A DNA stretch of 36,675 nt from Sulfitobacter sp. (GTDB lineage: Bacteria > Pseudomonadota > Alphaproteobacteria > Rhodobacterales > Rhodobacteraceae), in contig JABDKA010000135.1 in the NCBI GenBank assembly GCA_013002405.1, positions 1 to 36,675 of the forward strand, written 5' to 3'. This document shows positions 18,382 through 36,548 of this stretch, piece after piece. The stretch's first letter is position 1, and every line of letters starts with the position of its first letter. Position numbers and translations under genes: made by a program. Below the pieces are notes generated by a model. That model worked only from the letters and a program-made list of their open reading frames with translations. It was not told where the DNA came from and searched no databases.

Positions 18382-19605
<1,224 letters not shown>

Positions 19606-19617
19606 TCCAAAGGTGAG

Positions 19618-21956: not shown

Positions 21957-22110
21957 ACTGAGAGGGTGGCGAATCGTTTGTCAGTCTTCTTTCGCACTTT
22001 TTACTGAGGACTTGAGGGGTAAAGTGCAGGAGCCGAGGTGCCGCCTCTGTTTCTTGTAACGGACTGTTTTCGCCTCCATTCCGGGCGCTGGGAAGCTTCT
22101 CGGGCGGTCT

Positions 22111-22130
22111 TTTTGCACACGTGTGCAAAA
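22111..22130. promoter_or_regulatory. Perfect 20-bp palindrome, candidate LacI operator
   Basis: TTTTGCACACGTGTGCAAAA is a perfect palindrome with a central CG, the usual symmetry of LacI-family operators. It lies 72 bases upstream of the first gene of the transport/catabolic operon that itself encodes a LacI regulator (30655). No other copy was noticed in the window. Binding by that regulator is inferred. Confidence 0.75.
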
Positions 22131-22142
22131 ATATCTTGAAAT

Positions 22143-22190
22143 GGTGCGCCACATCGCCGACCGTAGAGGAAGCCGATCTTTCGGCGCACC
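22143..22190 (+). promoter_or_regulatory. Leader hairpin before the ABC ATPase gene
   Basis: GGTGCGCC (22143-22150) pairs perfectly with GGCGCACC (22183-22190) across a 32-base loop. The right arm abuts the GGGGGGATGGC ribosome-site region of the ATG at 22202, so the stem could affect translation of the first gene or simply stabilise the 5' end. Confidence 0.45.
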
Positions 22191-22201
22191 GGGGGGATGG
22201 C

Positions 22202-23257
22202 ATGGCCGAGATTGAACTGCGCAACGTGAACAAGCGGTGGGGCAGTTTTGTCGGCGTCGAAAATTTCAATCTCACCATTGCCGATCAGGAGTTTCTGGTG
22301 CTGCTGGGGCCCTCGGGCTGTGGCAAGACCACAACCATGCGGATGATCGCGGGGCTTGAAGATATCACCGAAGGGGAGATCGCCATTGATGGCCGGGTTA
22401 TCAACGATCTGGACCCCAAAGACCGCGATGTGGCGATGGTGTTCCAGTCCTACGGGCTTTACCCGCATCTGAATGTCTACGAAAATATTCGCTTTCCCCT
22501 GAAGGTACGCAAGGTGGACCCCGGGACCCACGACGAAAGGGTCCGGCGCGCCTCGGCCATGGTTGAACTGGACGACTTCCTGCACCGCAAACCTGCGGAA
22601 CTGTCGGGTGGGCAGCGGCAACGGGTGGCGCTGGCACGTGCCATCGTGCGGGAGCCGAATGTGTTCCTGATGGATGAGCCGCTGTCGAACCTGGATGCCA
22701 AGCTGCGGGTCAGCACGCGCGCTCAGATCAAGAATCTCAGTCATGAGCTGAAGGTAACCACGGTCTATGTCACCCATGACCAGATCGAGGCGATGACGCT
22801 GGCCGACCGCGTTGTGGTCATGAAGCAGGGCAAGGTCCAGCAGGTGGGCACGCCCACGGACATCTACGATAATCCGTCAAATACCTTCGTGGCCTCGTTC
22901 ATCGGCTCACCTGCGATGAACCTGATGGATGGAACTCTCAGGGGCGGTGTTTTCGAAGGTAAGAACGTGCGGATCGAAGGGATTGATGCGCCAGACGCTG
23001 AGGTCACTCTGGGCTTCCGGGCCGAAGATGCGACGGTGGCCGAGGGCGGCGGGGGCCAGATTACCGCGCCGATCTACACGGTAGAGCTTTTGGGAGATGC
23101 TGTCATGCTGGCGGTCCGCGCCGGGGGGCAGCTGGTCTCGGTCAAGGCGCACAAGGAATTTCGGGCGGAGATCGGGGACGAAGTCTCGTTCGGCGTCCCA
23201 AACGGGATCTGTCACCTCTTTGACAGGGCATCGGGCGAACGTTTGCGCGGCGGCTGA
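22202..23257 (+). CDS. ABC transporter ATP-binding protein, carbohydrate type (UgpC/MalK-like)
   Basis: A 351-residue ATPase of the CUT1 family that powers the importer encoded downstream. Walker A is GPSGCGKT (36-43), the signature LSGGQ is at 134-138, Walker B is VFLMDEP (154-160), the switch His is 192 in VTHD, and a C-terminal TOBE/MalK-type domain follows (FIGSPAMNLMDGTL...). All residues needed for ATP hydrolysis are present. The start at 22202 (MAEIELRNVNKRWGSF) is family-like; an upstream extension overlaps the palindrome and is rejected. It is the first gene of the LacI-linked operon. Confidence 0.95.
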   Translation: MAEIELRNVNKRWGSFVGVENFNLTIADQEFLVLLGPSGCGKTTTMRMIAGLEDITEGEIAIDGRVINDLDPKDRDVAMVFQSYGLYPHLNVYENIRFPLKVRKVDPGTHDERVRRASAMVELDDFLHRKPAELSGGQRQRVALARAIVREPNVFLMDEPLSNLDAKLRVSTRAQIKNLSHELKVTTVYVTHDQIEAMTLADRVVVMKQGKVQQVGTPTDIYDNPSNTFVASFIGSPAMNLMDGTLRGGVFEGKNVRIEGIDAPDAEVTLGFRAEDATVAEGGGGQITAPIYTVELLGDAVMLAVRAGGQLVSVKAHKEFRAEIGDEVSFGVPNGICHLFDRASGERLRGG

Positions 23258-23269
23258 TGTAATTGAATG

Positions 23270-23318
23270 CCCCCGCCGAACCGGGGGTCTAACGGGTGCA
23301 GGCTTGCAAGGTGCACCC
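23270..23318 (+). promoter_or_regulatory. Two consecutive hairpins before the binding-protein gene
   Basis: CCCCCG (23270-23275) pairs with CGGGGG (23282-23287), and GGGTGCA (23294-23300) pairs with TGCACCC (23312-23318) around an inner CTTGCAAG palindrome. They occupy the 86-base gap between ATPase and binding-protein genes and could mark a processing, attenuation or stabilising site. Confidence 0.45.
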
Positions 23319-23343
23319 TAACGATATGCATAAGGGAGTTTGC

Positions 23344-24567
23344 ATGATGATGTTGAAGAAACTGGCCCTCGCGGGGGCGATCAGCCTGATGGGCACGACG
23401 GCCTGGTCCGCCTGTGCCTTTGAAAACGAAACTGAGGTCAAGATCCTCTCAGCCGGGTTCGAGGCCTGGAAAGCGGTGACTGACGCCATGGCAGAGTGCG
23501 GCAACGTGCAGGCCGAGCTGGACCAGGAGTTCCGCACCAAGCAGCCCGCCGCCTTCGAGGCGAACCCCTCGCTTTATCACCTTGGTGGCGTGTCGAACGG
23601 GACGGTCACCCCGCTGCTGAACGCGGGAACGATCCGGCCCCTGGACGATCTGGTCGAAAAGTACGGCCAGAACCTGCAGCCCAACCAGCTGATCCGCGTA
23701 AACGGTCAGATCATGGCGATTGCCATGATGGTGAACACCCAGCACCTGATGTACCGCCAGGACGTGTTCGAGGAGCTGGGCATCGATGAGCCGAAGACCT
23801 GGGACGATGTCTATGCGGCCGCCGCCAAGATCAAGGAAAGCGGTAAGATGGACACGCCGCTCGGTGCGACGATGAAGTCCGGCTGGAACCTCGCGCAGGA
23901 GATGGTCAACATGCTGCCCGGTCATGGTGGCAAGTTCTTCAACGATGACAACACGCCAGCTGTCAATTCGGCCGAAGGTGTCGCGGCACTCGAAACCTTG
24001 AAGGCGGCGCTTGAATATACCGATCCCGAAGTGCTGGTCAGCGATTCCACTTACGTGCAGCAGCAGTTCCAGCAGGAAAAGATCGCCATTGCGAACCTCT
24101 GGGCAAGCCGCGCCGGTGCGATGAACGATGAGGCCGAAAGCGCGGTGGTGGGCAAGGTCAAAATGGCCGCGGCCCCCATGGCGATGGAAGGCGGCGCGCC
24201 CGCAACCACGCTGTGGTGGGACGGCATCGTCGTGGCCAAGAACATCACGGATGAGGAAGCCGATGCGGCCTTCCGTGTGGCGATGGAAGGCTTGGACGAG
24301 GAAATGGTCAAGGCCAACAACGGGGCGGCGATCTGGCTGATCAAAGGCTATGCGCCCGGCCCGCTGGCCGAAGGTGCCATTGCCACGGCGACGGCGAACC
24401 CCGCGCCGCCCGCCTATCCTTCGACCACGCGCATGGGTCTGATGCACACCGCCCTCGGCAACGAGCTGCCCGCCTTCCTGACGGGTGAGCGCGATGCCCA
24501 GGCAACGCTCGTGGCGATCGAGGAATCCTACACCACGGCTGCGAAGGAAGCAGGCATCCTGAACTGA
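23344..24567 (+). CDS. ABC transporter extracellular solute-binding protein, carbohydrate type
   Basis: A 407-residue periplasmic binding protein of the family 1 type that delivers the ligand to the permeases. A signal peptide is predicted for residues 1-23 (MMMLKKLALAGAISLMGTTAWSA) with cleavage before Cys24; the preceding Trp-Ser-Ala does not fit a lipobox. The hinge-region pattern GQIMAIAMMVNTQHLMYRQDVFEELGIDEPKTWDDVYAAAAKIKESG is typical of sugar-type binding proteins. Aromatic residues such as the WNLAQ, NLWASR and TLWWDG segments could stack on a sugar-like ring. AAGGGAG precedes the first of three consecutive ATGs. A strong hairpin follows the stop. The ligand is unknown. Confidence 0.93.
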   Translation: MMMLKKLALAGAISLMGTTAWSACAFENETEVKILSAGFEAWKAVTDAMAECGNVQAELDQEFRTKQPAAFEANPSLYHLGGVSNGTVTPLLNAGTIRPLDDLVEKYGQNLQPNQLIRVNGQIMAIAMMVNTQHLMYRQDVFEELGIDEPKTWDDVYAAAAKIKESGKMDTPLGATMKSGWNLAQEMVNMLPGHGGKFFNDDNTPAVNSAEGVAALETLKAALEYTDPEVLVSDSTYVQQQFQQEKIAIANLWASRAGAMNDEAESAVVGKVKMAAAPMAMEGGAPATTLWWDGIVVAKNITDEEADAAFRVAMEGLDEEMVKANNGAAIWLIKGYAPGPLAEGAIATATANPAPPAYPSTTRMGLMHTALGNELPAFLTGERDAQATLVAIEESYTTAAKEAGILN

Positions 24568-24576
24568 GAAAATGCC

Positions 24577-24601
24577 GCTGGCCGGGACAGACCCGGCCAG
24601 C
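24577..24601 (+). promoter_or_regulatory. Strong intercistronic hairpin after the binding-protein gene
   Basis: GCTGGCCGGG-acaga-CCCGGCCAGC is a perfect 10-bp stem, ten bases past the stop, with no T-tract. Such hairpins after a binding-protein cistron commonly protect its mRNA and raise its level relative to the permeases, as known for malE; here that is inferred. The rest of the 142-base gap before the permease shows no gene. Confidence 0.7.
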
Positions 24602-24709
24602 GCACCACCAGGCGGATTTCGTCGAAGACCTGTTCCGGTCTTTTGCCAAAACCGCTGATGTTGCGCTTTCGAACGCCGGTCCGGCTGGCAAGTGACCAAG
24701 GGGGATACG

Positions 24710-25735
24710 ATGAAATTCAAGACCTTCTTCGCCTTCGTGGCCCCGTCGCTGTTCATGATGATCCTCTTCATTGCCCTGCCCCTGGTGTCAGTGCTGATCC
24801 AGAGCTTCCAGATCACTCAGCCGGTGATGACCCAGTCCGAGGTCGAGACCTGCACGCCCGGGTTCCTGACGCAGACCTGTACGACCGAGCTCAAGACCGT
24901 GCCGGTACTGGATGAGAACGGAAAGACCATCACCACGACAGAATGGGTTGGTCTGCAAAGCTACCGGAACGTGCTGCAGATGGATAAGGTATGGGCCGCC
25001 ATCGGCTCGAACAGTTGGTCCGAGATCCTGCAGATCGACTTCTGGAAGGCCTTGCGCTTCACGCTGATGTACACGCTGCTCACTTTGCCGCTCGTGATTG
25101 GTGTGGGGCTCCTGATCGCGCTGACGGTAAATAATGCGGCCAAGTCGTTGCGCGGGCCGGTGATCTTCATTTCGCTGCTGCCTTTCATCATCACACCGGT
25201 CGTCGGGGCGCTGTCGATCTACTGGCTTTTTGTCGGGGACGGCATCCTGACCGCGCTGATGGAGCAATGGTCGGGTACCAACATCTCCATGTTCGCGCAG
25301 GCCTGGACGATTGAGCTTTTGATGTATTTCTACCGGGTCTGGCACGTGGCGCCCTTTGCCTTCGTGATCTTCTATGCAGGCCTGCAGACCGTGAACATGG
25401 ACACGCTGGAATCGGCCGTCATCGATGGGGCAAACCGCTGGGAGCGTCTGCGCCACGTGATCATCCCGCACCTCATGCCGCTCATTATCTTCATTGCACT
25501 GATCCACCTGATGGACTGCTACCGGGTCTTCGAAGAGATCGTGGGCTTCCGCTCGGAGGCCTATGTGATCTCGCTCCAGTGGCTCACTTATGATTTCCTC
25601 ACGCCAGACGATGCGGGCAACCGGGCGATTGCACGGGCATCTGCCAGCGCCATGCTGACAATGATCGGGATCGTGTTCCTGCTGATCCTGCCGCTGCGCC
25701 GTACCTGGCGCGACCACAAGGGAGGGGCGCACTGA
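24710..25735 (+). CDS. ABC transporter permease 1, carbohydrate type, with periplasmic Cys-containing insert
   Basis: A 341-residue MalF/UgpA-type permease. The binding-protein-dependent transport motif is visible as LESAVIDGANRWERLRHVIIPHLMP. After the first membrane helix (about residues 8-30) there is a hydrophilic stretch of about 45 residues, with Cys48 and Cys57, that is longer than in typical family members and should be periplasmic; a disulfide is possible. About six membrane helices are seen. The ATG at 24710 follows AAGGGGGATAC. The stop overlaps the next start by one base (TGATG). Confidence 0.92.
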   Translation: MKFKTFFAFVAPSLFMMILFIALPLVSVLIQSFQITQPVMTQSEVETCTPGFLTQTCTTELKTVPVLDENGKTITTTEWVGLQSYRNVLQMDKVWAAIGSNSWSEILQIDFWKALRFTLMYTLLTLPLVIGVGLLIALTVNNAAKSLRGPVIFISLLPFIITPVVGALSIYWLFVGDGILTALMEQWSGTNISMFAQAWTIELLMYFYRVWHVAPFAFVIFYAGLQTVNMDTLESAVIDGANRWERLRHVIIPHLMPLIIFIALIHLMDCYRVFEEIVGFRSEAYVISLQWLTYDFLTPDDAGNRAIARASASAMLTMIGIVFLLILPLRRTWRDHKGGAH

Positions 25736-26892
25736 TGGCAACCTCGAAGGCCATGCAGCAGTCCCTCGCGCTGCGCTTCTCCTCGGCCGCCTTTCTGGTC
25801 TTCTGGTGCGTGATCGCCGCCTTCCCGATCTTCTGGATCGCCGTGATGAGCTTCAAGGCCCCGCGCGACGCCTTCGCGGACAGTCCATGGGATGTGATCT
25901 TTGGACCGAACACCCTGGCGCGTGGCGACGGGCTATCGATCCTCGATATTCTGGTCGGGCTGGCGGTGCTCTACTTTGCGATCCGCTGGGCCTTTACCCG
26001 GCTGCCGGGATTGGTGACCCGGTACGCCAACGGGCCTTTTACCGTGCTGGGTTGGATTGTCGGCGCGCTAATCTACGCGCTCGTCTTCTTGTTGGTCTTT
26101 TTCGGGCTTCTGCCGTTGATCCTCGATCCGCTCAACGGCCTTCTTGGACCGCTGGGTGAGCCGGTGCTGGGCCTGACGACACAGCACTACGTCGCGGTAT
26201 GGGGAGAGAATGAGTTCTATCGCAACTTTCTCAACTCCATGCTGGTCACGGCAGGTGTGGTGACGATCTCGCTCACCGTTGGCACGCTGGCGGGCTATGG
26301 CTTGGCGCGCTCGGGCTCCAACCTGGCCTTCTGGCTGCTGATTTTGGCGCTGATCTTCCGCGCGCTGCCACACTCGGTCCTGGTCGCGGGTTACCTGCCC
26401 TGGTTCATCAACTCGGCCGAGATCCTGCGCCCGATCTTCGGGGATCTGTCACCGACCCTTTATGGTCAGCCCTGGGCGGTGATCGCGGTGCTGGTGTCGA
26501 TCAACCAGCCCTTCACGATATGGATGCTTCGTTCCTTCTTTCAGAACATCCCGTCAGAACTGGACGAGGCCGCGCGGGTCGACGGGTGTTCACACTTCCA
26601 GGCCTTCCGGCGGGTGATTATGCCGGTGATGTGGCCGGGGGTAATCACCACCGGGCTTTTCAGCTTCCTGCTCGGGTACAACGATTTCCTCGTCACCTCG
26701 CTTTTGCTGGACGCACAGAACCAGACCATGGTGCCGGCCATCGCGGGCTACTTCAACCGCGAGACGACGACGACCGATCAGGTCGAGGCGGTGGCGGCGG
26801 CGGTGTCTATCACGGCGCCGCTCTTCCTGCTGGTGATGGTGTTCCAGCGGCAGATCGTGAGCGGCCTGACCGCCGGAGCCGTAAAGGGATGA
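25735..26892 (+). CDS. ABC transporter permease 2, carbohydrate type, with extra membrane segments
   Basis: A 385-residue MalG/UgpE-type permease, roughly 100 residues longer than the usual 270-300. The EAA-type loop is ELDEAARVDGCSHFQAFRRVIMPVMWPG. The extra length lies between the first helix (about 15-40) and the conserved start of the core (FYRNFLNSMLVTAG near 161): it holds two hydrophobic segments at about 67-84 and 102-130 separated by a short polar loop. The frame is continuous and the insert has normal GC and codon use, so it is not a frameshift artefact. Overlap with the upstream gene shows translational coupling. Confidence 0.92.
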   Translation: MATSKAMQQSLALRFSSAAFLVFWCVIAAFPIFWIAVMSFKAPRDAFADSPWDVIFGPNTLARGDGLSILDILVGLAVLYFAIRWAFTRLPGLVTRYANGPFTVLGWIVGALIYALVFLLVFFGLLPLILDPLNGLLGPLGEPVLGLTTQHYVAVWGENEFYRNFLNSMLVTAGVVTISLTVGTLAGYGLARSGSNLAFWLLILALIFRALPHSVLVAGYLPWFINSAEILRPIFGDLSPTLYGQPWAVIAVLVSINQPFTIWMLRSFFQNIPSELDEAARVDGCSHFQAFRRVIMPVMWPGVITTGLFSFLLGYNDFLVTSLLLDAQNQTMVPAIAGYFNRETTTTDQVEAVAAAVSITAPLFLLVMVFQRQIVSGLTAGAVKG

Positions 26893-26894
26893 GC

Positions 26895-26938
26895 AGATTT
26901 CTCGCAAGAAATCTGGCAAGACTTCTGCAAAGGTCTTG
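26895..26938 (+). promoter_or_regulatory. Tandem hairpins between permease 2 and the first NTF2-like gene
   Basis: AGATTTC-tcgcaa-GAAATCT (26895-26914) is a perfect 7-bp stem three bases past the permease stop. CAAGAC (26917-26922) then pairs with GTCTTG (26933-26938). Both fill the gap between transport and enzyme genes. No T-tract is present, so partial termination or RNA processing is more likely than full termination. Confidence 0.55.
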
Positions 26939-26947
26939 GGGGACGGC

Positions 26948-27481
26948 ATGAAAGGATCGCGCCCCGAGCAGGCCGTGCTGACCCGTGATACGGATATGGC
27001 GCAGACCGAAGCGACCCGCCGTGTCATCGAAGGCATGGTCGACGGTTTGAACGACCATACCATCGACGGTATCGGCACCTTTTTCCATGAAAGCTTCCGC
27101 TGGATGGGCAACCAGGGCTGCGGCACCAAGCAGGGGCTGCAGGAATTTCAGGACAACTGGCAGAGGCCATTTCAGGCCGCCTTCTCCGATAAGGTCTGTA
27201 TCGACGAGGCACGGCTTTTCATGGGCGAATGGGCCGCGGCCTTCGGTCGGCAGGAGGCCACGCACTCGGGCACCTTCATGGGAGTGGCCCCGACCGGAAA
27301 GCGGATCGAGATCCGGTATATGGATTTCTGGAAGGTGAGCGAGGGCAAGATCGAGGACAACTGGGTGATGGTCGATTTCCCCCATGTCCTGGCCCAGCTT
27401 GGTATCGACGTTTTCAAGGGCGAAGGCTGGGAGGCCTTCGATCGCGGCGAGCGGACCCCGCCGCGCCCAGAGAGGCAATGA
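26948..27481 (+). CDS. NTF2/SnoaL-fold protein 1 (ester-cyclase-like)
   Basis: A 177-residue protein with one SnoaL-like domain: helices at the N-terminus ([35 protein letters not shown]) then strands ending [45 protein letters not shown]. Such folds host isomerases, cyclases, hydratases and dehydratases acting on small molecules, without a conserved catalytic signature. The C-terminal strand block closely matches that in the second half of the 28851 gene product, showing duplication within the operon. GGGGGAC precedes the ATG at 26948. It ends seven bases before the HisD-like gene. Substrate unknown. Confidence 0.85.
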
Positions 27482-27488
27482 GGTAGAA

Positions 27489-28817
27489 ATGACCATCACA
27501 TATCTGAAGCGTGGCAAGTCGGACGCGGAGCGGAGTGACGAGGACGCCCGCACGCGTGAGGCCGTGGAGGCAACCCTAAAGGACATCGAAGCGCGCGGCG
27601 ATGCCGCCGTGCGGGAGCTGTCGGAGAAGTTCGACAGCTACAGCCCGCCCGCCTTCCGGCTCAGCCCGTCGGAGATCGACGCGCTCATTGCCAAGGTCAC
27701 CCCACGCGAAATGGCAGACCTGAAGTACGCGCAGGAGAATGTCCGCCGCTTTGCCCAGGCGCAGCGCGATTCCATGCTGGATATCGAGGTGGAGATGCAA
27801 CCGGGTGTGATCCTCGGACACAAGAACATCCCGGTACAGTCCGTCGGCTGCTATGTCCCGGGCGGCAAGTTTCCGATGGTCGCTTCGGCCCACATGTCGG
27901 TCGCCACCGCCTCCGTCGCAGGCGTGCCGCGCATCATCGCCTGCACGCCGCCCTTCAAGGGCGCGCCGAACCCCGCCGTCATCGCCGCAATGCACCTGGG
28001 CGGCGCACACGAGATCTACGTGCTGGGAGGCATCCAGGCGGTCGGGGCCATGGCGCTGGGGACCGAGACCATCAACCCCGTGCACCTTCTGGTGGGCCCC
28101 GGGAATGCTTTCGTCGCAGAGGCCAAGCGCCAGCTCTTCGGTCGGGTGGGCATCGACCTCTTCGCCGGACCGACCGAGACCATGGTGATCGCCGATGAGA
28201 CGGTCGATGCTGAGATTTGCGCAACGGACCTGCTGGGGCAGGCCGAACACGGCTACAACTCTCCCTGCGTGCTGCTGACCAACTCAGAGAAGCTGGCACG
28301 GGAGACGATGGCGGAAATCGAGCGCCTCCTCGGTATCCTGCCAACGGCGGACACGGCCCGCGCCTCCTGGGAGAACTACGGTGAGGTGATCCTCTGCGAC
28401 ACCTACGAGGAAATGCTGCAGATGGCGGACGAAATCGCCTCGGAACATGTGCAGGTGATGACCGACCGGGATGACTGGTTCCTTGAGAAGATGACCTGCT
28501 ATGGCGCGCTGTTCCTTGGCCCGCGCACCAACGTGGCCAACGGGGACAAGGTAATCGGGACCAACCATACGCTGCCGACCAAGAAGGCGGGCCGCTATAC
28601 GGGCGGTCTCTGGGTTGGCAAATATCTCAAGACTCACTCTTACCAGAAGATCACCACGGATGAGGCGGCCGCGGAGGTAGGTGCCTACGGATCACGGCTC
28701 TGTATGTTGGAAGGCTTCGTGGGGCACGCCGAACAGTGCAACGTACGCGTGCGTCGCTACGGAGGCATTAATGTCCCCTACGGCGCGGGTGCGCCCGCGC
28801 GGAAAGCGGCAGAGTAG
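27489..28817 (+). CDS. Histidinol-dehydrogenase-like NAD-dependent alcohol dehydrogenase (HpsN-related)
   Basis: A 442-residue protein of the HisD superfamily. The zinc and catalytic residues of HisD have counterparts: Gln251 and His254 (QAEHGYNSP), Glu319-His320 (ASEHVQVM), Asp353 ([14 protein letters not shown]) and His413 (GHAEQCN). The nucleotide-binding part has [30 protein letters not shown]. It is not in a histidine operon; it is surrounded by transport and catabolic genes. Paralogs in this position include sulfopropanediol 3-dehydrogenase (HpsN), which oxidises a primary alcohol to a carboxylate in two NAD+ steps. I infer the same chemistry on an unknown polyol-like substrate. No sulfonate-pathway genes are adjacent, so the HpsN substrate is not assumed. 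Confidence 0.88.
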
Positions 28818-28850
28818 AAAGATCGCGGGATTTGGAACCATTTGGAAGTT

Positions 28851-29897
28851 ATGGACAGGCACACCCAGAATAAAGAACGGATCGCCCCGCTAAGGGCGGC
28901 GATGTACGATTTTGAGCAATCAGCCGTGCGAGAGGCGCTGGTGGAGGTCTGTGCTCAGGATGCCGTCTTCCGACTCGCCTTTCCCTTCGAGACAACCGAA
29001 GGGGTCGGGGCCTATTATGACAAGGCCTATGCACCGCTCCTGCGGGCAATCCCCGATCTGGAGCGGCGCGATCATATCGTGATGGCGGGACCCACGCCCG
29101 AGGGGCACGACTGGGTTGGCTGCGGGGGCTATTACTGCGGGACCTTCCAGGCGCCCTGGCTGGACATTCCGCCCACGGGCCACCTGATGCACATGCGCTT
29201 TCACGAATTCTACCGCATCGTTGAGGGTAGGATCGTTGAGATGCAGGCCCTCTGGGACATTCCGGAAGTGATGATGCAGGCCGGGGCGTGGCCTATGGTT
29301 CCCTCGCTCGGGCGGGAGTGGCATGTGCCTGCCCCCGCAAGCAACGATGGGATCGTGCCGGGACCCTACGAAGCTGCCAGTGGGACGACCACCTGCCAGC
29401 ACATCATCGACATGCTGGACCACCTCAAGAAGCATCCAAGTCAGGGCGGGCCGGAGGTGATGGAGATGGCGCGTTTCTGGCATCCACGGATGAACTGGTA
29501 CGGGCCTTCGGGCATCGGGACGGGCCGGGGGATCGAAGGTTTTCGCAAGTGGCATCAGATCCCTTTCCTCAATGGCATGCCCGACCGGGGTCAGTATGTG
29601 GATGAGATCACCTATCATTTCTTCGGCGACCGCAACTATGCGGCAGTGACCGGCTGGCCGGACATGTACCAGACCATCACCCACGATGGCTGGCTGGGGA
29701 TTGCGCCAGTGGGCAAGAAGATCGAGATGCGGTCGCTGGATTTCTGGCGGGTGGAAAAGGATCTCATCAGGGAGAACTGGGTTCTGGTGGACCTTCTGCA
29801 CATGTACGATCAGATCGGGGTCGATGTCTTTGCCCGGATGCGGGAATTCAACAAGGTCCGGTCCGGTTTCGATCCTGTGACAGGGGTGGCGCTGTGA
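28851..29897 (+). CDS. Double-domain NTF2/SnoaL-fold protein 2
   Basis: A 348-residue protein that appears to hold two SnoaL-like domains in tandem. Domain 1 runs to about residue 160 (FRLAFPFETTEGVGAYYDKAY ... PPTGHLMHMRFHEFYRIVEGRIVEMQALWDIPEVMMQAG). Domain 2 occupies about 190-335 and ends GIAPVGKKIEMRSLDFWRVEKDLIRENWVLVDLLHMYDQIGVDVF, nearly the same pattern as in NTF2-like protein 1. The ATG at 28851 is chosen; a TTG at 28842 is possible and no clear ribosome site settles it. Its stop overlaps the GTG start of the SDR gene. Function unknown; a small-molecule isomerase, dehydratase or hydrolase is plausible. Confidence 0.82.
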   Translation: MDRHTQNKERIAPLRAAMYDFEQSAVREALVEVCAQDAVFRLAFPFETTEGVGAYYDKAYAPLLRAIPDLERRDHIVMAGPTPEGHDWVGCGGYYCGTFQAPWLDIPPTGHLMHMRFHEFYRIVEGRIVEMQALWDIPEVMMQAGAWPMVPSLGREWHVPAPASNDGIVPGPYEAASGTTTCQHIIDMLDHLKKHPSQGGPEVMEMARFWHPRMNWYGPSGIGTGRGIEGFRKWHQIPFLNGMPDRGQYVDEITYHFFGDRNYAAVTGWPDMYQTITHDGWLGIAPVGKKIEMRSLDFWRVEKDLIRENWVLVDLLHMYDQIGVDVFARMREFNKVRSGFDPVTGVAL

Positions 29898-30655
29898 GCA
29901 GCTTACCCAATCCTCCCTCCTTCGATCTGACCGGCAAGCGGGCCCTGGTGACCGGGGCATCCTCGGGTATCGGTCTGGGCTGCGCGGTTGCCCTGGCCGC
30001 GGCGGGGGCGCACGTGGTCTGTGCCGCGCGGCGGGTCGAGGCGCTGCAGGAGGCGGTGAATGCGATGGCCGGGAAGGGCTGGTCTGCCGAGGCGATGGCG
30101 CTGGATCAAACGGATCTTGAGGCGATCGGGGAGGCCTTTGCCGAGCCTTTCGACGTGGTGCTGAATTCCGCCGGGATGGCGCGCCATTCGGCGGCAGTGG
30201 AAACGAGCGCCACCGACTTCGACGCGGTCATGGGGATCAACCTGCGGGGGGCCTATTTCCTGTCTGCCGAGGCAGCAAAGGCGCTTATGGCGGCGGGGCG
30301 CGGCGGTTCGATCATCCATATTTCCAGCCAGATGGGCCACGTTGGCGGGACCGACCGGGCGCTTTACTGCGCCTCGAAACACGGGTTGGAAGGGATGGTC
30401 AAGGCCATGGCCGTGGAGTGGGGCAAGGCGGGCATCCGGATCAACACCATCTGCCCGACCTTCGTGCGCACGGCGCTGACGCAGGCCACCTTCGATGATC
30501 CGGCGCGGTTTGCCTGGATCATGGAGAAGATCAAGCTGCCCCGGGTGGCGGAGGTGGACGATATTTCGGGCGCTGCGGTCTATCTCGCCTCGGATGCCTC
30601 GGCCATGGTCACCGGCTCTGCCTTGATGATCGATGGCGGCTGGACGGCGGACTGA
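29894..30655 (+). CDS. Short-chain dehydrogenase/reductase (SDR)
   Basis: A 253-residue classical SDR. The cofactor motif is TGASSGIG (20-27), NSAG is at 91-94, a catalytic Ser lies in HISSQMG (144-145), and Tyr158 and Lys162 are in YCASKHG. Arg46-Arg47 after the second strand (AARRVEA) hints at NADP(H) but is not decisive. The C-terminal pattern VYLASDASAMVTGSALMIDGGWTAD is typical of polyol- and hydroxyacid-type members. It starts with GTG, overlapping the preceding stop, and its stop overlaps the LacI start. It probably oxidises a secondary alcohol of the imported compound. Confidence 0.93.
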   Translation: MSSLPNPPSFDLTGKRALVTGASSGIGLGCAVALAAAGAHVVCAARRVEALQEAVNAMAGKGWSAEAMALDQTDLEAIGEAFAEPFDVVLNSAGMARHSAAVETSATDFDAVMGINLRGAYFLSAEAAKALMAAGRGGSIIHISSQMGHVGGTDRALYCASKHGLEGMVKAMAVEWGKAGIRINTICPTFVRTALTQATFDDPARFAWIMEKIKLPRVAEVDDISGAAVYLASDASAMVTGSALMIDGGWTAD

Positions 30656-31665
30656 TGGGGGGCAAGGTTACATCGCTGGACGTGGCGGAGCGGGCCGGGG
30701 TCAGCCGTTCTGCGGTCAGCCGGGTCTTCACGCCCGGTGCCTCGGTCAGCAAGTCGACGGCGGCCAAGGTCCGCTCGGCCGCGCGGGAGCTGGGATATCG
30801 GCCCAACGTCCTGGCGCGCAGCCTGATCACGGGGCGCAGCCGGATCATCGGACTGGTGGTGGCCTACCTTGAAAACCAGTTCTATCCGGAGGCGATCGAG
30901 CGGCTGTCGAAGGCGCTTCAGGCCAATGGCTATCACGTGCTGGTCTTCATGGCGTCCAACGACAGTGCGGCCACACAGCAGGTGATCGACGAGTTGCTGG
31001 ACTACCAGGTGGACGGGATCATCGCCGCGTCGGTCGGTCTTTCCAACGATCTGACCCGCCGCTGCGAGGAGGCGGGCATTCCCATTGTGCTCTTCAACCG
31101 GGACCAGTTCGACGACCGCCTTTCCAGTGTCACCTCCGACAATATGGCAGGGGGCCGCAAGCTCGCTGATTTCCTCATTGCAGGGGGACACAGCCGGATC
31201 GCCCATATCGCAGGCTGGGAAGGCGCCTCTACTCAGATCGACCGGGAGGCGGGATTCAAGGCGGGTCTTATGGCGGCAGGGTTCAGGCTGGTGGCGCGGG
31301 GCGTTGGGGATTTCAACTTCGCCCGCGCGCAGGAGGCCGCGCGGGAGATGTTCGACCGGGACGATCCGCCCGATGCGGTTTTCGTGGCCAATGATCACAT
31401 GGCCTTTGCGGTGATGGACGTCCTGCGGTTCGAGCTGGGTATCGACGTGCCGGGCGATGTTTCAGTTGTAGGCTATGACGATGTGCGGCCCGCCAGTTGG
31501 GCCAGCTACGATCTGACCACGGTGCGCCAGCGGGCCAACGTAATGGTGGACGAGGCAACCGCGCTGCTGCTGGCGCGGATTGAGGATCAGGATACACCGC
31601 CCCGTCGCATCTGCATCGACGGGCCGCTTATCGTGCGCGGATCGGCCCGCGTGCCGAAAGGATAG
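30655..31665 (+). CDS. LacI family transcriptional regulator
   Basis: A 336-residue LacI/GalR repressor. The N-terminal helix-turn-helix and hinge read VTSLDVAERAGVSRSAVSRVFTPGASVSKSTAAKVRSAARELGYRPNVLARSLITGRS, followed by a periplasmic-binding-protein-like effector domain (IIGLVVAYLENQFYPEAIERLSKALQANGYHVLVF ... DAVFVANDHMAFAVMDVLRFELGIDVPGDVSVVGYDDVRPASWASYDLTTVRQ). It starts in TGATG overlap with the SDR gene and lies in the operon it presumably controls. The best candidate operator is the 20-bp palindrome at 22111. The effector is likely the imported compound or its first catabolite. Confidence 0.95.
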   Translation: MGGKVTSLDVAERAGVSRSAVSRVFTPGASVSKSTAAKVRSAARELGYRPNVLARSLITGRSRIIGLVVAYLENQFYPEAIERLSKALQANGYHVLVFMASNDSAATQQVIDELLDYQVDGIIAASVGLSNDLTRRCEEAGIPIVLFNRDQFDDRLSSVTSDNMAGGRKLADFLIAGGHSRIAHIAGWEGASTQIDREAGFKAGLMAAGFRLVARGVGDFNFARAQEAAREMFDRDDPPDAVFVANDHMAFAVMDVLRFELGIDVPGDVSVVGYDDVRPASWASYDLTTVRQRANVMVDEATALLLARIEDQDTPPRRICIDGPLIVRGSARVPKG

Positions 31666-31668
31666 GAC

Positions 31669-32637
31669 ATGCAAGGATTTGACCCCAAGTTCCGGGATTT
31701 CCCGGACTACATCATCGGCATTACCAAGGAGATCTGGGAGGACCGTGGCATCGCCACGCTGCACCAGTACTACAGCGAGGATATCGTGGTACGTTCTCCC
31801 GGTTCGGTGGTGGTCGGCAACAAGGGTGTGATCGCCGCCACCATGGCGACGCTGGCAGAGTTTCCGGACAGGACACTTCTGGGGGAGGATGTGATCTGGT
31901 CGGGCACGCCGGAGGAGGGGATGCTTTCCTCCCATCGGCTGCTGTCGACGGCGACGCATCTTAATGACGGGATGTACGGGGCCGCGACGGGAAAGAAGCT
32001 GGTCTACCGGATCATGGCGGACTGTCACGCGATCAACAACCAGATCAACGATGAATGGCTGGTGCGGGACCAGGGGGCGATCGTGCGTCAGATGGGGTGG
32101 GAGCCCAAGCAGTATGCGGCTGACCTTATCGAGCGGGAAGGCGGGCCGGAGCATTGTGTCCAGCCGATGACGCCCCGCAACGATCAGACGGGCCCCTACA
32201 AGGGGCACGGGAACGACAATGAATGGGGGCGTAAATATGCGGCTATCCTGACCGGGATCATGTCTGCCGATATGGCCCTGATCCCGCAGGAGTATGACCG
32301 CGCCGTGGTGAGCCACTATCCCGGCGGTGTGCAGGGGCACAGCCACGGGCCGGTTGATCAGTTCTGGACGGGGCTTAGGGCCTCCTTTCCGAACGCGGCT
32401 TTCCGGGTGGATCACGTGATCGGACGAGAGGACCCGATGATGCCGCCACGTGCGGCGGTGCGCTGGTCCCTCACCGGCAAGCATGATGGCTGGGGCAGCT
32501 TTGGGACGCCTACGGGCAAGGACGTCTACGTGCTGGGCATCAGCCATGCGGAGTTTGGCCCCTGGGGGCTGCGCCGCGAATATACGCTTTTTGACGAGGC
32601 GATGATCTGGAAGCAGCTTCTGCTTCAGACTGGATAG
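31669..32637 (+). CDS. Double-domain NTF2/SnoaL-fold protein 3
   Basis: A 322-residue protein with two SnoaL-like halves. The first (about 10-150) has ITKEIWEDRGIATLHQYYSEDIVVRSPGSVVVGNKGVIAAT and ATGKKLVYRIMADCHAINNQINDEWLVRDQGAIVRQMG. The second (about 190-320) has YDRAVVSHYPGGVQGHSHGPVDQFWTGLRASFPNAAFRVDHVIG and PTGKDVYVLGISHAEFGPWGLRREYTLFDEAMIWKQL. A Thr-Gly-Lys before a strand recurs in several NTF2 domains of this operon. It starts three bases after the LacI stop and is followed by a 62-base gap. The function is unknown; presence beside the two other NTF2-fold genes implies a linked role. Confidence 0.82.
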   Translation: MQGFDPKFRDFPDYIIGITKEIWEDRGIATLHQYYSEDIVVRSPGSVVVGNKGVIAATMATLAEFPDRTLLGEDVIWSGTPEEGMLSSHRLLSTATHLNDGMYGAATGKKLVYRIMADCHAINNQINDEWLVRDQGAIVRQMGWEPKQYAADLIEREGGPEHCVQPMTPRNDQTGPYKGHGNDNEWGRKYAAILTGIMSADMALIPQEYDRAVVSHYPGGVQGHSHGPVDQFWTGLRASFPNAAFRVDHVIGREDPMMPPRAAVRWSLTGKHDGWGSFGTPTGKDVYVLGISHAEFGPWGLRREYTLFDEAMIWKQLLLQTG

Positions 32638-32699
32638 TCCTCATCGCCGGGCCTTGCCCGCTCTTCGCAACGGGCGGCACACTGACAGGAAGAAAAAGA

Positions 32700-33668
32700 A
32701 TGACACCACAGGAAATGGAAAACCGCATCGTCCGCTACGGTGATCTGCAACCGTGCAAGACGGCCTTCATCGACGCACACACGCCCGGCAGTGACCAGAA
32801 GGAGAACTTTACCATCATCGGCGGCGGCGTATCGGAGTCCCCCGATCAGCACGTCCACATCACCATCCCGCACGGCTTCAACATCGGGGCCGCAGGCCAG
32901 CCGCCCAAATGCCGCAACTCGCTCCACAACCACCGCACGGCAGAGGTCTTCTTTGTCCTCTCGGGGCGCTGGCGATTCTTCTGGGGCCAGCACGGCGATG
33001 CGGGTGAGGTTATCCTGGAGGAGGGGGATATCTTCAACATACCCACAAACATCTTCCGCGGGTTCGAGAATGTCGGCACCGACTATGGGATGATCATGGC
33101 CATCCTGGGCGGGAACGATGCGGGCGGCGGTGTCATCTGGGCGCCCCACGTGATTGAAGATGCCAGGGATCACGGTCTGATCCTGGGCGAGAATGGCAAG
33201 CTTTACGACAGCAAGAAGGGCGAAGGCCTGTCTGCAGGCGTGAACCCCATGCCACTGCTGACAGAGGCTGAACTGGCCAAGGTCGATACCCCCAGCCCGA
33301 TGCAGGTGGTCGGCGGCTATGTGCGCCGCTACCTTGACATGCTGGCGCTCACCCAGTCCGGCAAGGCCTGCAAGGTGATTGGTGAGCGTGGTATCATCCG
33401 CGACAAGCCGGGCTTCGAGGTGGATCTGGTGACCCGCGCCTGCGCGACGGAGGCCATGCATCAGCACGACCGTCCTTCCGTCCTCATGCCGGTCAAGGGA
33501 CACTGGCGGGTGAACTGGGAGGGCGGCAGCGCAACGCTTGCACCCGGCGATACCATGTCGGTCCCCGAAAACCTGATGCATAACGCCCTGCCCGCCATGT
33601 CCGGGCAGGCGGCGCTGTACCACGTCGTCGCCACCGACGACGCAGCCGGTCCGACCTGGAAGGGATGA
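32700..33668 (+). CDS. Bicupin with altered metal ligands
   Basis: A 322-residue protein with two cupin domains, as in gentisate 1,2-dioxygenase-like proteins. Domain 1 has His76, His78 and Glu82 in LHNHRTAEVFFVLSG, but the last ligand position is Arg120 (PTNIFRGFEN) instead of His. Domain 2 has His254, His256 and His294 (MHQHDRPSVLM, ENLMHNAL), but the Glu position is Ser260. Each domain thus keeps three ligands of different types. The product could be a dioxygenase, isomerase or epimerase; I cannot say which. The ATG follows GGAAGAAAAAG. The stop overlaps the dipeptidase start (ATGA). Confidence 0.88.
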   Translation: MTPQEMENRIVRYGDLQPCKTAFIDAHTPGSDQKENFTIIGGGVSESPDQHVHITIPHGFNIGAAGQPPKCRNSLHNHRTAEVFFVLSGRWRFFWGQHGDAGEVILEEGDIFNIPTNIFRGFENVGTDYGMIMAILGGNDAGGGVIWAPHVIEDARDHGLILGENGKLYDSKKGEGLSAGVNPMPLLTEAELAKVDTPSPMQVVGGYVRRYLDMLALTQSGKACKVIGERGIIRDKPGFEVDLVTRACATEAMHQHDRPSVLMPVKGHWRVNWEGGSATLAPGDTMSVPENLMHNALPAMSGQAALYHVVATDDAAGPTWKG

Positions 33669-34711
33669 CCTTGGTCCCAGTCTTTGATGGACATAACGAT
33701 GCTCTGGGCCGCCTGTGGTGTGCGGAAGGGGACCCTGTCGCCCGCTTTGCGCGCGATGAAGGGCATATCAACGTGCCTCAGATGGCGGCAGGCGGGTTCA
33801 GGGGCGGCTTCTTTGCGCTCTATTCCCCGGAAAAGCGCGCGCCCTTTGACTTCAGCGCTTTCTCTGTCGCGGATCTGGAAATCCCCTTGCCCCCGATGCT
33901 GGAAGAAGGCGCGGCTTTGACCGCCGCCATAGGGCAGGCGGGCATTGCGCATAAACTGGCCGCGGCGGGGCATTTGAATATCTGTACCACAGCAGACGCG
34001 GTGCGCAGTGGATTGACCGAAGGGCCACCGGTCTGCCTGCTGCACCTTGAAGGGGCGGATTGCATCGGTCCCGATTTGCTGGCGCTCGATACGCTTTACG
34101 CACTGGGCCTGCGGTCGCTAGGCATCGTCTGGTCGCGGCCCACCATCTTCGGCCATGGGGTTCCCTTTCGGCACAACCACGACGGCGATACCGGGCCGGG
34201 ACTGACGGCGGATGGCAAGCGTCTGGTGGCGCGCTGTCTTGAACTGGGCATGGTGATCGACACCAGCCATCTCACCATGAAGGGCTTCTGGGACGTGGCC
34301 GAGGCGGGTGCGCCACTGGTCGCCACGCACTCCAACGCCTGTGCCATCTCCAACAACGCCCGTAACCTGACTGACATGCAACTGCGCGCCATTGGTGCGA
34401 GTGGCGGCATGGTCGGTCTGAACTTTGCGACGGTCTTCCTGTCCGATGCGGGCTGGAAAAGCGGTCAGGCAGGTATCGACGATTGCCTGCGCCAGCTGGA
34501 CCATATGGTTGAGGTCACTGGCGAAACCTGCGTCGGCCTTGGCTCAGATTTCGACGGCGCGCCCTTGCCCGAAGGAATATCTGGCGCTGGCGATCTGCCC
34601 GACCTCATCGCGGCGATGAAGCGGTACGGTTTTGACGCGCCGCTCATCGACAGGCTCTGCCACGGCAACTGGCTGTCCTTCCTCGACCGAAACCTTGCCG
34701 CCCCCACCTGA
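33665..34711 (+). CDS. Membrane-dipeptidase (M19) family metallohydrolase
   Basis: A 348-residue cytoplasmic-looking member of peptidase family M19 (renal dipeptidase type), with no signal peptide. The dizinc site is complete: His10 and Asp12 in DGHNDALGR, Glu129 in LHLEGAD, His202 in DTSHLT, His222 in ATHSNA, and Asp295 in GSDFDG. Family members hydrolyse dipeptides, often with D-residues, and other amide bonds. In this catabolic operon it may cleave an amide or N-acyl bond of an intermediate. It overlaps the bicupin gene by four bases and precedes the MetE-like gene by 17 bases. Confidence 0.93.
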   Translation: MTLVPVFDGHNDALGRLWCAEGDPVARFARDEGHINVPQMAAGGFRGGFFALYSPEKRAPFDFSAFSVADLEIPLPPMLEEGAALTAAIGQAGIAHKLAAAGHLNICTTADAVRSGLTEGPPVCLLHLEGADCIGPDLLALDTLYALGLRSLGIVWSRPTIFGHGVPFRHNHDGDTGPGLTADGKRLVARCLELGMVIDTSHLTMKGFWDVAEAGAPLVATHSNACAISNNARNLTDMQLRAIGASGGMVGLNFATVFLSDAGWKSGQAGIDDCLRQLDHMVEVTGETCVGLGSDFDGAPLPEGISGAGDLPDLIAAMKRYGFDAPLIDRLCHGNWLSFLDRNLAAPT

Positions 34712-34728
34712 AGCATCCGGAGACCCCC

Positions 34729-35859
34729 ATGAAGATCAAAACAACCCACGTAGGTTCCCTTCCCCGCTCACAGGAGGTGGTCGATTTCATCTTTGCGCGG
34801 GAGCGGGAAGAGCCCTACGACCCCGCCGGTTTCGACGTGGCGATGACGCAGGCGGTGTCCGACACGGTGGCCAGGCAGGTGAAGGCAGGCATCGATATTG
34901 TGAGCGACGGTGAGACCTCCAAAATCAGTTACGCGACCTACGTCAAGGATCGCTACACCGGCTTTTCCGGCGACAGTCCCCGCAACGCGCCTGCGGACTT
35001 GAAACTCTTCCCATCTTACCTGCAACGTTTGGCCGATGATGGCGGCACGCCCAAATACGCCCGACCCATGTGTACGGGTGAGGTGCGCTCCAAGGGGCAG
35101 GGAGAGCTTCAGAAAGACATCGACAACCTGCAAACGGCCATGGCCGCGCACGGGGCCGAGCGGGGTTTCATGAATGCGGCTTCTCCGGGGGTCATCTCGC
35201 TTTTTCTGCAGAATGACCACTACAAGACGCGCGACGCCTACCTGGCTGCGCTGGCCGATGCGATGAAGGAAGAGTATGAGACCATCGTGGCCGCCGGTCT
35301 GGACCTGCAGCTCGACTGCCCCGATCTTGCCCTCTCGCGTCACATGCTCTTCAATGATCTGTCCGACGCGGAGTTTATCAAGGTCGCCGCGTCCCACGTG
35401 GAAGCCCTCAACCATGCCCTGAGTGATGTGCCCGAGGAGAAGGTGCGCATCCACATCTGCTGGGGCAACTACGAAGGGCCGCATGTCTGCGACATCGGGA
35501 TGGAAAAGGTCTTTGACACCCTGATGGGGGCCAAGGCGCGCTATGTCCTGTTCGAGACTTCCAACCCCCGCCACGCCCACGAATGGACGGTTTTCCGCGA
35601 CCGGAAAGCGGATATTCCCGAGGGCAAGGTGCTGGTGCCGGGTGTTGTCGACACAACGACCAACTTCGTGGAGCATCCCGAGGTGGTGGCCCAGCGGATC
35701 GAACGCTTCACGGATATCGTAGGGGCCGAAAGGGTCATTGCGGGCTCGGACTGCGGCTTCGGCACCTTCGCGGGCTTTGGCGCGGTGGACCCGGAGATTG
35801 CCTATGCCAAGCTATCCGCACTGAGCGAGGGAGCTGCCCTGGCGGGGGCGCGGGTATGA
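34729..35859 (+). CDS. MetE-like zinc methyltransferase-fold protein (cobalamin-independent methionine synthase II family)
   Basis: A 376-residue single-barrel relative of the C-terminal half of MetE. The zinc ligands of MetE have counterparts at His242 and Cys244 (IHICWGNYEGP), Glu276 (LFETSNPRHAHEW) and Cys342 (AGSDCGFGTF). The N-terminal HVGSLPR is a family hallmark. It lacks the MetE N-terminal half, so it is not a full methionine synthase. Relatives include epoxyalkane:coenzyme M transferase and uncharacterised thiol alkyl-transferases, so a zinc-thiolate reaction such as demethylation or thiol addition/removal is likely. Its stop overlaps the RraA-like gene start by four bases (ATGA). 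Confidence 0.9.
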   Translation: MKIKTTHVGSLPRSQEVVDFIFAREREEPYDPAGFDVAMTQAVSDTVARQVKAGIDIVSDGETSKISYATYVKDRYTGFSGDSPRNAPADLKLFPSYLQRLADDGGTPKYARPMCTGEVRSKGQGELQKDIDNLQTAMAAHGAERGFMNAASPGVISLFLQNDHYKTRDAYLAALADAMKEEYETIVAAGLDLQLDCPDLALSRHMLFNDLSDAEFIKVAASHVEALNHALSDVPEEKVRIHICWGNYEGPHVCDIGMEKVFDTLMGAKARYVLFETSNPRHAHEWTVFRDRKADIPEGKVLVPGVVDTTTNFVEHPEVVAQRIERFTDIVGAERVIAGSDCGFGTFAGFGAVDPEIAYAKLSALSEGAALAGARV

Positions 35860-36548
35860 AAGAGAGCCTTCAAGCGCTTCTATGCCGCGTCGATACGCCG
35901 ACGGTCTGTAATGCCATCGAGGTGGCACAGGGCAAGCGTGGCTTTGACGCCTTCACGCGGGGGACGATGCAGTGCTCCGCACCGGGAGCGGCAATGGTGG
36001 GCTTTGCCCGCACCGCACGTATCCGCGCGGTCAAGCCCCCCGAAGAGCCGGCCGAAGTCATCAAGGCCCGGCGCATGGCCTACTACAAGTACATGGCCGA
36101 GGGACCACGCCCCGGTTTGGCTGTCGTGCAGGACCTCGACGTGCCCCACGCCATCGGCGCCTACTGGGGGGAGATCAATACCAATGTGCACAAGGCCTTT
36201 GGCCTTTCAGGTGCGCTGACCGACGGGGTGATGCGGGACCTGGGCGATCTGCCGGACGGATTTCCGGTTGTGGCAGGCGCGATCGGGCCGAGCCACGGCT
36301 TCGTCCATGTGGTGGATTTCGACCAGCCGGTCGAGATCATGGGACTGCCTGTCGCCCCCGGCGCGCTGGTCCACGCCGACCGGCATGGGGCGGTGGTCAT
36401 CCCGGATGACCTGGTACCAGAACTGGAGCAGGCCATTGCCCAACTCTTCCAATCAGAAAGGGTCGTTCTGGATGCCGTGAAGGGCAAGCGCATCGGGTTT
36501 GACGAATTCGAGGCGGCCTGGGCGGCTTTCGAGGCCTCCCGCACCTGA
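35856..36548 (+). CDS. RraA-family aldolase/decarboxylase
   Basis: A 230-residue protein of the RraA / 4-hydroxy-4-methyl-2-oxoglutarate aldolase fold. The hallmark Mg-binding and catalytic motif is present as GALTDGVMRDLGDL, with Arg and Asp in the expected RD pair, along with VHADRHGAVVIPDDLV. Enzyme members cleave 4-hydroxy-2-oxo acids to pyruvate or decarboxylate oxaloacetate; other members inhibit RNase E. The catabolic operon favours an aldolase or decarboxylase feeding central metabolism. The start overlaps the MetE-like stop. It is the last gene seen; the remaining 127 bases show no gene or clear terminator. Confidence 0.9.
   Translation: MKESLQALLCRVDTPTVCNAIEVAQGKRGFDAFTRGTMQCSAPGAAMVGFARTARIRAVKPPEEPAEVIKARRMAYYKYMAEGPRPGLAVVQDLDVPHAIGAYWGEINTNVHKAFGLSGALTDGVMRDLGDLPDGFPVVAGAIGPSHGFVHVVDFDQPVEIMGLPVAPGALVHADRHGAVVIPDDLVPELEQAIAQLFQSERVVLDAVKGKRIGFDEFEAAWAAFEASRT

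Follow-up and report, generated by a model that had tools for sequence, protein, structure and literature searches.

Several described systems have something in common with the genes considered here. Catabolism of dihydroxypropanesulfonate (DHPS, or sulfopropanediol) by way of hpsN, hpsO and hpsP employs HpsN, a zinc dehydrogenase with the HisD fold; the core-MetE and Mes synthases are short methyltransferases that dispense with the N-terminal folate domain (PMC7857596); LigK, PcmE and related proteins are aldolases of the RraA family; and sugar-type catabolic operons combine an ATP-binding cassette (ABC) importer with a local LacI gene and a palindromic operator. The operon that is our subject lies on contig JABDKA010000135.1 of a Sulfitobacter sp.; "the window" is this entire contig, 36675 bases, of a 3.6-Mb genome in 252 contigs. 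From 22202 to 36548 on the + strand, fourteen same-direction genes specify nine enzyme-like proteins together with an ABC importer and a LacI regulator. The transporter architecture, local LacI gene and palindromic operator are those of the sugar operons, but kinases, sugar isomerases and dehydratases of known sugar routes are missing from the fourteen genes. The operon's HisD-like enzyme retains the catalytic residues of HpsN, but replaces the sulfonate-binding His by Met and is accompanied by another importer and other partner genes. Its MetE-like protein is of the short form, with zinc and homocysteine residues intact, but sits in a LacI-controlled catabolic operon and scores under the NCBIfam cut-offs. 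Its RraA-like protein has the family fold and the Arg-Asp pair, but scores only 26.5 bits against the LigK equivalog TIGR02798 (cut-off 304.5), and the operon contains no neighboring aromatic ring-cleavage gene of a named family.

We consider it likely that this is a LacI-controlled operon for the catabolism of one small, hydroxyl-rich, probably methylated compound. Searching the open-licence literature by family names, where absence is not proof, yielded no published description of the gene set, which leaves standing the original prediction that no described pathway has it. A set of a dozen or so genes that roseobacters retain, that survives for the most part even in 1.4-Mb genomes and that is partly present, behind the same operator, in other phyla probably serves a common natural substrate, and the operon bears on which dissolved compound the roseobacters of the ocean consume. 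The operator, the third group of HisD-family enzymes and the complete methyltransferase site that are described below make the question of its substrate a testable one.

A conserved unit and its predicted operator

Relatives of the operon were collected with the MetE-like protein as bait: loci L024-L103 are the best 80 of 578 confirmed MetE-like matches in genome contigs, with flanks of up to 10 kb per side, and the presence of MetE in 80/80 accordingly holds by construction. They span Sulfitobacter, Ruegeria, Roseobacter, Shimia, Octadecabacter, Planktomarina, Amylibacter, HTCC2255, Roseibium and a Rhizobiaceae metagenome-assembled genome, among others. The HisD-like gene is found in the flanks of 76 of the 80, the short-chain dehydrogenase (SDR), LacI and bicupin genes in 78 each, and the genes of the three SnoaL/NTF2 proteins (SnoaL1, SnoaL2 and SnoaL3, in their order along the operon) in 68, 75 and 79, respectively; RraA follows with 66. 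In 60 loci an alpha/beta-hydrolase is found no more than 3 kb from MetE (a wider count of 67 takes in distant family members away from the operon). Permeases are present in 59 and 62 loci, the binding protein in 35 and the ATPase in 23, counts that are limited by the flank. Other partners are sporadic: an S-adenosylmethionine (SAM) methyltransferase in 20/80, a GMC oxidoreductase in 9/80, and the M19 protein in 1/80. The notion that these genes usually lie scattered, named beforehand as what would speak against the original prediction, is ruled out by their co-occurrence: the fourteen-gene operon is a conserved unit, beyond chance adjacency in many genera, and the set is co-conserved across the Rhodobacteraceae and beyond.

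Of 385 alphaproteobacterial genomes, 69 have a match to the bicupin, although many of these matches are single-cupin proteins related to its first half; most of the 27 neighborhoods (L163-L189) fetched around the longer matches contain the same set. Two loci in 1.4-Mb genomes (L181 and L182) have importer parts, SnoaL proteins, MetE, RraA, cupin, HisD and SDR, with no LacI or hydrolase match; a third, in a 1.6-Mb genome (L188), has no SDR and no RraA match. Four genomes (G159, G264, G354 and G432) have five matches apiece to the N-terminal half of the bicupin, some with internal stops. In L024, L025, L026, L039 and L084, loci of Sulfitobacter/Roseobacter type, an enolase-superfamily-like gene lies 3' of the operon, in some of them with a zinc alcohol dehydrogenase-like gene (both named from translations).

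Beyond the roseobacters the unit contracts to a core: HisD-like dehydrogenase, SDR, cupin, alpha/beta-hydrolase and pyruvate-type aldolase. Together with LacI, and with either RraA or HpcH/HpaI as the aldolase, this core recurs in annotated plasmids of Sinorhizobium medicae (L113), Martelella (L123), Labrenzia (L124), Alloyangia (L117), Novosphingobium (L119), Pantoea (L115), Klebsiella (L122), Deinococcus (L116) and Priestia (L121, with a HisD of the second type). (A technical note: the plasmid contexts were chosen by hand from MetE, SnoaL2, bicupin and SnoaL3 matches, and their layouts are no random sample.) The fetched stretches of these nine lineages contain no MetE match. The importer of module loci varies in type: ABC, major facilitator superfamily (MFS) or tripartite ATP-independent periplasmic (TRAP). 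The two aldolases are seldom together: in a non-redundant set of 126 loci (10 of 136 cupin-family loci having been dropped at 97% bicupin identity) RraA alone is found in 79, HpcH alone in 18, both in 1 and neither in 28. Several module plasmids also bear an amidase or carbon-nitrogen hydrolase and a second copy of HisD; of the 136 cupin-family loci, 7 have both amide hydrolase and second HisD, 4 have the hydrolase alone, 4 the second HisD alone and 121 neither, an association with a Fisher p of 6.7e-7, which is overstated since the lineages are related. Additional stretches were fetched for four of the genomes: that for L225 (L258) has an amidase adjoining a second HisD, that for L226 (L259) has a second HisD, and those for L223 and L224 (L256 and L257) hold no amidase.

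Some clusters share only part of the operon. A plasmid of the haloarchaeon Halobellus limi (L114, 187-15153) combines a MetE-like gene with five genes of SnoaL type; an ABC importer, an IclR regulator and an aldehyde dehydrogenase lie close by, with no HisD or cupin match. A Vibrio pelagius plasmid (L112, 4544-21146) has SnoaL proteins and an ABC importer related to those of the window beside a heterotetrameric sarcosine oxidase and purU, with no HisD, cupin or MetE match. SnoaL, ABC and LacI genes that cluster without the enzyme core, in L120 and at 12865-21069 of L098, suggest sister pathways.

A single palindrome runs through part of this material. When up to two mismatches are allowed, the 16-bp consensus TTGCATACGTATGCAA occurs at 65 sites in the 136 module loci (2.75 Mb); 64 of these sites, spread over 35 loci, lie no more than 350 bases upstream of a module gene, while twenty permuted palindromes of the same make-up yield zero promoter sites (totals 0 to 11). 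The genes that they precede encode transporter, HisD, SnoaL, LacI, MFS, cupin, SDR, amidase, hydrolase and aldolase proteins, and the sites are found in Alphaproteobacteria, Pantoea, Deinococcus and Priestia. In the window the predicted LacI operator is a perfect 22-bp palindrome at 22110-22131 (TTTTTGCACAC/GTGTGCAAAAA, arms 100% complementary) whose core at 22113-22128, also a perfect palindrome, is 2/16 bases off consensus and is the sole zero-mismatch match to TTGCANACGTNTGCAA in its own genome. These sites support a prediction of direct LacI control of the operon through the palindrome, and they place the amidase that other lineages carry in that regulon as well. The proposal of a LacI-controlled import-and-catabolism operon thus gains a conserved operator at module promoters to go with the LacI gene (30655-31665; LacI HTH 7.3e-13, Peripla_BP_3 1.3e-31) inside the operon. 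Neither the generic LacI pattern TGNNANCGNTNNCA, sought in the window, nor TTGCAWACGTWTGCAA, sought in the genome at one mismatch, has a match: both miss the window copy because its two variable positions are C/G. A second operator-like site of the genome, at C223:11502 among ntrX/ntrY- and trk-like genes (read from translations), was taken as chance; the genome contains seven further two-mismatch sites.

Enzymes and importer

Gene families were assigned by Pfam and NCBIfam profile matches. The HisD-like zinc dehydrogenase (27489-28817; Histidinol_dh 5.6e-134) has the DHPS dehydrogenase HpsN as its closest sequence in the PDB (8v35, 8.2e-117), with HisD behind at 1e-75. The motif of HpsN is G-R-Y-A/S-H, the last His of which (His126) binds the sulfonate, and that of HisD is G-S-A-P-L (PMC11382572). 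All 72 full-length operon orthologues have GKFPM instead, with Met at the position of the sulfonate-binding His (this and the following residue counts refer to full-length matches from L024-L103 and the window). The zinc and catalytic residues Gln, His, Glu, His, Asp, Lys and His are each present in 72/72, and E323, H324, D357 and K358, which correspond to Glu318, His319, Asp352 and Lys353 of HpsN, are invariant, as befits the HisD-like dehydrogenase originally predicted. Among all 118 collected HisD-family sequences (some genes appear twice) 94 have GKFPM, 7 have GKYPL, 11 have other motifs and 6 do not fit the pattern. In a tree of 30 sequences the operon enzymes are one group (19 rows, 97/93); a GRYSH pair is separate, on a long branch (100/100), most second-copy HisD rows are also apart, and three rows, one of them from contig C67 of the window's own genome, are on very long branches. 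The C67 protein, the genome's third HisD and its strongest HisD-family match, is presumably the enzyme of histidine biosynthesis; it reads GLASY, and the G-S-A-P-L motif is therefore not universal. A role in histidine synthesis was dropped for the operon enzyme, since the strongest match lies on C67. Judged by motif and tree, the operon dehydrogenase is a third HisD-family group, neither classical HisD nor HpsN, of which no characterised member was found. Contig C136 of the same genome has (in L162, from 8210 onward) a GRYSH dehydrogenase beside TRAP-like genes and an SDR; this is likely to be its DHPS locus.

The MetE-like core methyltransferase (34729-35859; Meth_synt_2 2.6e-13) retains S10, E62, D196, H242, C244, E276 and C342, each invariant in 81/81. 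In the MetE and Mes families such residues are ligands of zinc and homocysteine, according to PMC7857596, from which the roles were transferred by aligning by eye. Scores against the NCBIfam MetE-type models are 22.2 to 91.7 bits, every one below its cut-off. Core-MetE homologues of unclear use are reported for marine bacteria, one of them in P. inhibens, whose mtgCDE mutant remains a methionine auxotroph despite it (PMC12478193). Relatives at 51-54% lie on three sphingomonad plasmids (L106, L107 and L108), in each case followed by an NTF2 gene and an IclR gene and near one-carbon genes: an aminomethyltransferase-type protein, methylenetetrahydrofolate reductase and purU. The original prediction of a zinc protein stands; its undefined zinc-thiolate step gives way to a predicted methyl transfer, since the zinc and homocysteine residues are complete. 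These residues also hint at a methylated substrate.

The RraA-family aldolase-like protein (35856-36548; RraA-like 1.7e-15) keeps Arg127 and Asp128 in 49/49, in agreement with its earlier assignment as an aldolase; an Arg-Asp pair is the catalytic pair of RraA-family pyruvate aldolases such as LigK/CHA and HMG aldolase. Each domain of SnoaL1 and SnoaL2 has an Asp near its end: Asp147 of the single-domain SnoaL1 (26948-27481; SnoaL 1.1e-20; 181 aa as listed) is present in 64/64, and Asp139 and Asp317 of the di-domain SnoaL2 (28851-29897; two SnoaL stretches, 6.3e-21; 351 aa as listed) in 69/69 each. SnoaL3, also di-domain (31669-32637; SnoaL 3.3e-16, SnoaL_2 3.7e-11; 322 aa), keeps D134 and D309 in 79/79. 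The first domain of the bicupin (32700-33668; Cupin_2 1.3e-12) has H76, H78, E82 and R120 in 78/78, with R120 where a fourth ligand is usual. Its second domain is weak: a three-His dioxygenase site, first read by eye, fell because the would-be ligand His residues are variable (conserved in 33/78, 33/78 and 45/78), and for the same reason the protein probably has one site per chain, which agrees with the shorter, single-cupin versions of Deinococcus and Priestia. The SDR (29894-30655; adh_short_C2 6.2e-54) completes the conserved enzymes.

The M19 dipeptidase-family hydrolase (33665-34711; Peptidase_M19 6.8e-78, 262.5 bits, cut-off 26) is not supported as part of the core of the pathway, for which a possible amide cleavage had been proposed: it is a rare extra, and amide hydrolases of other families are present in some lineages only. 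The window's genome has a 57-58% relative of the alpha/beta-hydrolase at C235:7548-8228, in no related cluster. The idea that M19 and the alpha/beta-hydrolase are simple alternatives is unsupported, some clusters elsewhere holding amide hydrolase and alpha/beta-hydrolase together.

The importer consists of an ATPase of UgpC/MalK type (22202-23257; ABC_tran 1.8e-34), a family 1 extracellular solute-binding protein with a signal-like N-terminal stretch (23344-24567; SBP_bac_1 3.2e-23) and two permeases (24710-25735 and 25735-26892; BPD_transp_1 2.7e-9 and 7.7e-22). The closest solved sequences to the binding protein are sugar binders. A UgpB/UgpC glycerol-phosphate importer was rejected: the ATPase passes (NF008653, 446.5 bits, cut-off 432), but the binding protein, at 20.4 bits, is far below its cut-off of 411.

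Proposed pathway and candidate substrates

What might these proteins do together? Beyond the gene set, its conservation, the operator sites and the retained residues, which are observed, we infer the following reactions and order. The ABC importer would take the compound up, and the compound or an early product would release LacI from its site at 22113-22128. Demethylation of the substrate would fall to the MetE-like protein, with a thiol, most simply that of homocysteine, as the methyl acceptor; the HisD-like enzyme would convert a CH2OH next to a carbinol to a carboxylate, and the SDR would oxidise or reduce a second group. The SnoaL proteins could provide acid-base steps, for example isomerisation, dehydration or C-N hydrolysis. 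Cupin and hydrolase would turn the resulting compound into a 4-hydroxy-2-oxo acid, to be cleaved to pyruvate and an oxo acid by RraA or, in other lineages, by HpcH/HpaI.

As to the class of compound, our leading guess, a tentative one, is a C7 cyclohexenone of the mycosporine/gadusol type. Mycosporines and mycosporine-like amino acids are sunscreens of algae, cyanobacteria and fungi. 4-Deoxygadusol and the mycosporines have one methoxy group and one CH2OH on a tertiary carbinol; the mycosporines have, in addition, an amino acid or amino alcohol attached as a vinylogous amide. The LigK-type substrate 4-carboxy-4-hydroxy-2-oxoadipate is one that RraA-family aldolases are known to cleave. With a mycosporine as substrate, the MetE-like protein would remove the 2-O-methyl group, amide hydrolases or SnoaL proteins would strip the amino acid from the vinylogous amide, the HisD-like enzyme would oxidise the CH2OH that the tertiary carbinol bears, ring opening by cupin and alpha/beta-hydrolase would give 4-carboxy-4-hydroxy-2-oxoadipate, and RraA would split the latter to pyruvate and oxaloacetate. 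Gadusol whose CH2OH is not oxidised would yield pyruvate and 3-oxo-tetronate instead. A 3-oxo-tetronate kinase gene does stand beside the cupin-hydrolase-HpcH triad in four loci without a HisD match (L118, L126, L219 and L220), and within 8 kb, in the 126 non-redundant loci, HisD and kinase never occur together (both 0, HisD only 110, kinase only 3, neither 13); this fits the mycosporine scheme because the same cleavage of gadusol would generate the kinase's substrate. The open-licence literature contains no matching pathway of mycosporine catabolism among the matches listed, which were mostly unrelated reviews and, in the narrowest search, a coral-genome paper. Were the guess right, the operon would represent a microbial sink for a major biological sunscreen.

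One can think of other substrates. The sugar-type importer and LacI suggest a linear or branched sugar acid or polyol (of the tetronate, apionate or carboxypentitol type, with no ring and no nitrogen), degraded by lactone hydrolysis and a pyruvate aldolase, and the kinase genes in the cupin-hydrolase-aldolase triad can be read in its favor; we nevertheless find it doubtful, since it leaves unexplained both the conserved MetE-like methyltransferase and the amidase behind the same operator elsewhere, and the kinase clusters lack both an operator site, even at 3 mismatches, and a nearby HisD match. The intact core-MetE residues would also suit a methylated betaine, sulfonium or glyceryl-linked osmolyte, demethylated by MetE and attacked by HisD at the glyceryl CH2OH; sarcosine oxidase and purU adjoin the related SnoaL-ABC cluster of Vibrio pelagius, and matches to the sarcosine oxidase beta-subunit (52-59%) occur in L030, L074 and L086. 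Such an osmolyte is unlikely: three of 80 loci is near chance (about one, by a rough estimate), no purU match of at least 35% occurs in any of the 80, lineages that share the operator do without MetE, and there is no obvious need for a pyruvate aldolase.

The polyketide-cyclase-like SnoaL proteins, and the SAM methyltransferase of 20/80 loci, might instead indicate biosynthesis or detoxification; a dedicated importer, LacI control and a pyruvate-type aldolase make this very unlikely, and the annotated module regions that were inspected contain no carrier-protein or synthase gene. To a variant of DHPS or other C3 sulfonate catabolism we give scarcely any credence, although sulfonated compounds were among those originally suggested for growth screening. 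That HpsN dehydrogenases are the nearest solved relatives of the HisD-like protein speaks for it, but the HpsN motif reported in PMC11382572 is absent, GKFPM taking its place in 72/72 and Met that of the sulfonate-binding His; the genome has a separate GRYSH gene, and the tree splits GRYSH from the operon group. Routes for pantothenate, ascorbate, pyridoxine and riboflavin were also considered and dropped: each leaves the aldolase, the methyltransferase or a missing named oxygenase unexplained.

A catabolic operon for a methylated compound, and specifically a mycosporine, also has evidence weighing against it. The operon is patchy: a strong full-length MetE match is found in 16 of 58 genomes of the window's genus (its own included; one further genome has a fragment). 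Operator sites occur in only 35/136 loci; of 28 loci with 400 bases visible before the UgpC-type ATPase, 12 show a site in that stretch (several of the remaining 16 do not begin with the ATPase gene and have their site ahead of a different gene of the module; L118 has none). A looser pattern has 98 matches in 56 loci; some of these fall within genes, and in L062 two stand ahead of a LacI gene that is unrelated. Module lineages without MetE weaken the case for a methylated substrate as far as they are concerned. The operon in the window lacks the alpha/beta-hydrolase, no relative of the bicupin is found in the PDB at E 0.001, and the ring-cleaving role assigned to the cupin is a guess. The core of 4-deoxygadusol offers the SDR no secondary alcohol. 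Three other HisD-less triads (L127, L218 and L221) lack a kinase match as well, and the operator-less kinase clusters may have another compound as their substrate. Finally, fungal mycosporines, with their amino alcohols, would be a good match for the pair of amidase and second HisD, but this pair is not tied to one habitat, its carriers coming from leaves (L115 and L121), fresh water (L119) and the sea (L123 and L124); our confidence in a mycosporine was lowered slightly because these habitats did not fit.

Gene models and neighboring genes

All fourteen families, as originally listed, are found at their places, with some starts corrected. The ATPase start is taken as ATG 22202, where the NCBIfam UgpC alignment begins (residue 28 in that frame), rather than GTG 22121, because the latter falls within the perfect 22-bp palindrome. 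The starts of the HisD-like and RraA genes were corrected to 27489 and 35856; the remaining ones are a chosen early in-frame Met. Adjoining genes overlap by 1-4 bases at four junctions (29894/29897, 30655/30655, 33665/33668 and 35856/35859). Since the contig stops at 36675, genes downstream of the operon are out of view. Upstream, at 17386-21956, no operator site at up to two mismatches precedes any of three neighbors: a GcvA-type LysR gene on the minus strand (17386-18294), an acyl-CoA dehydrogenase gene (18382-19605) and, closest to the operon, a gene for a fused E1 alpha/beta 2-oxo-acid dehydrogenase (19722-21956).

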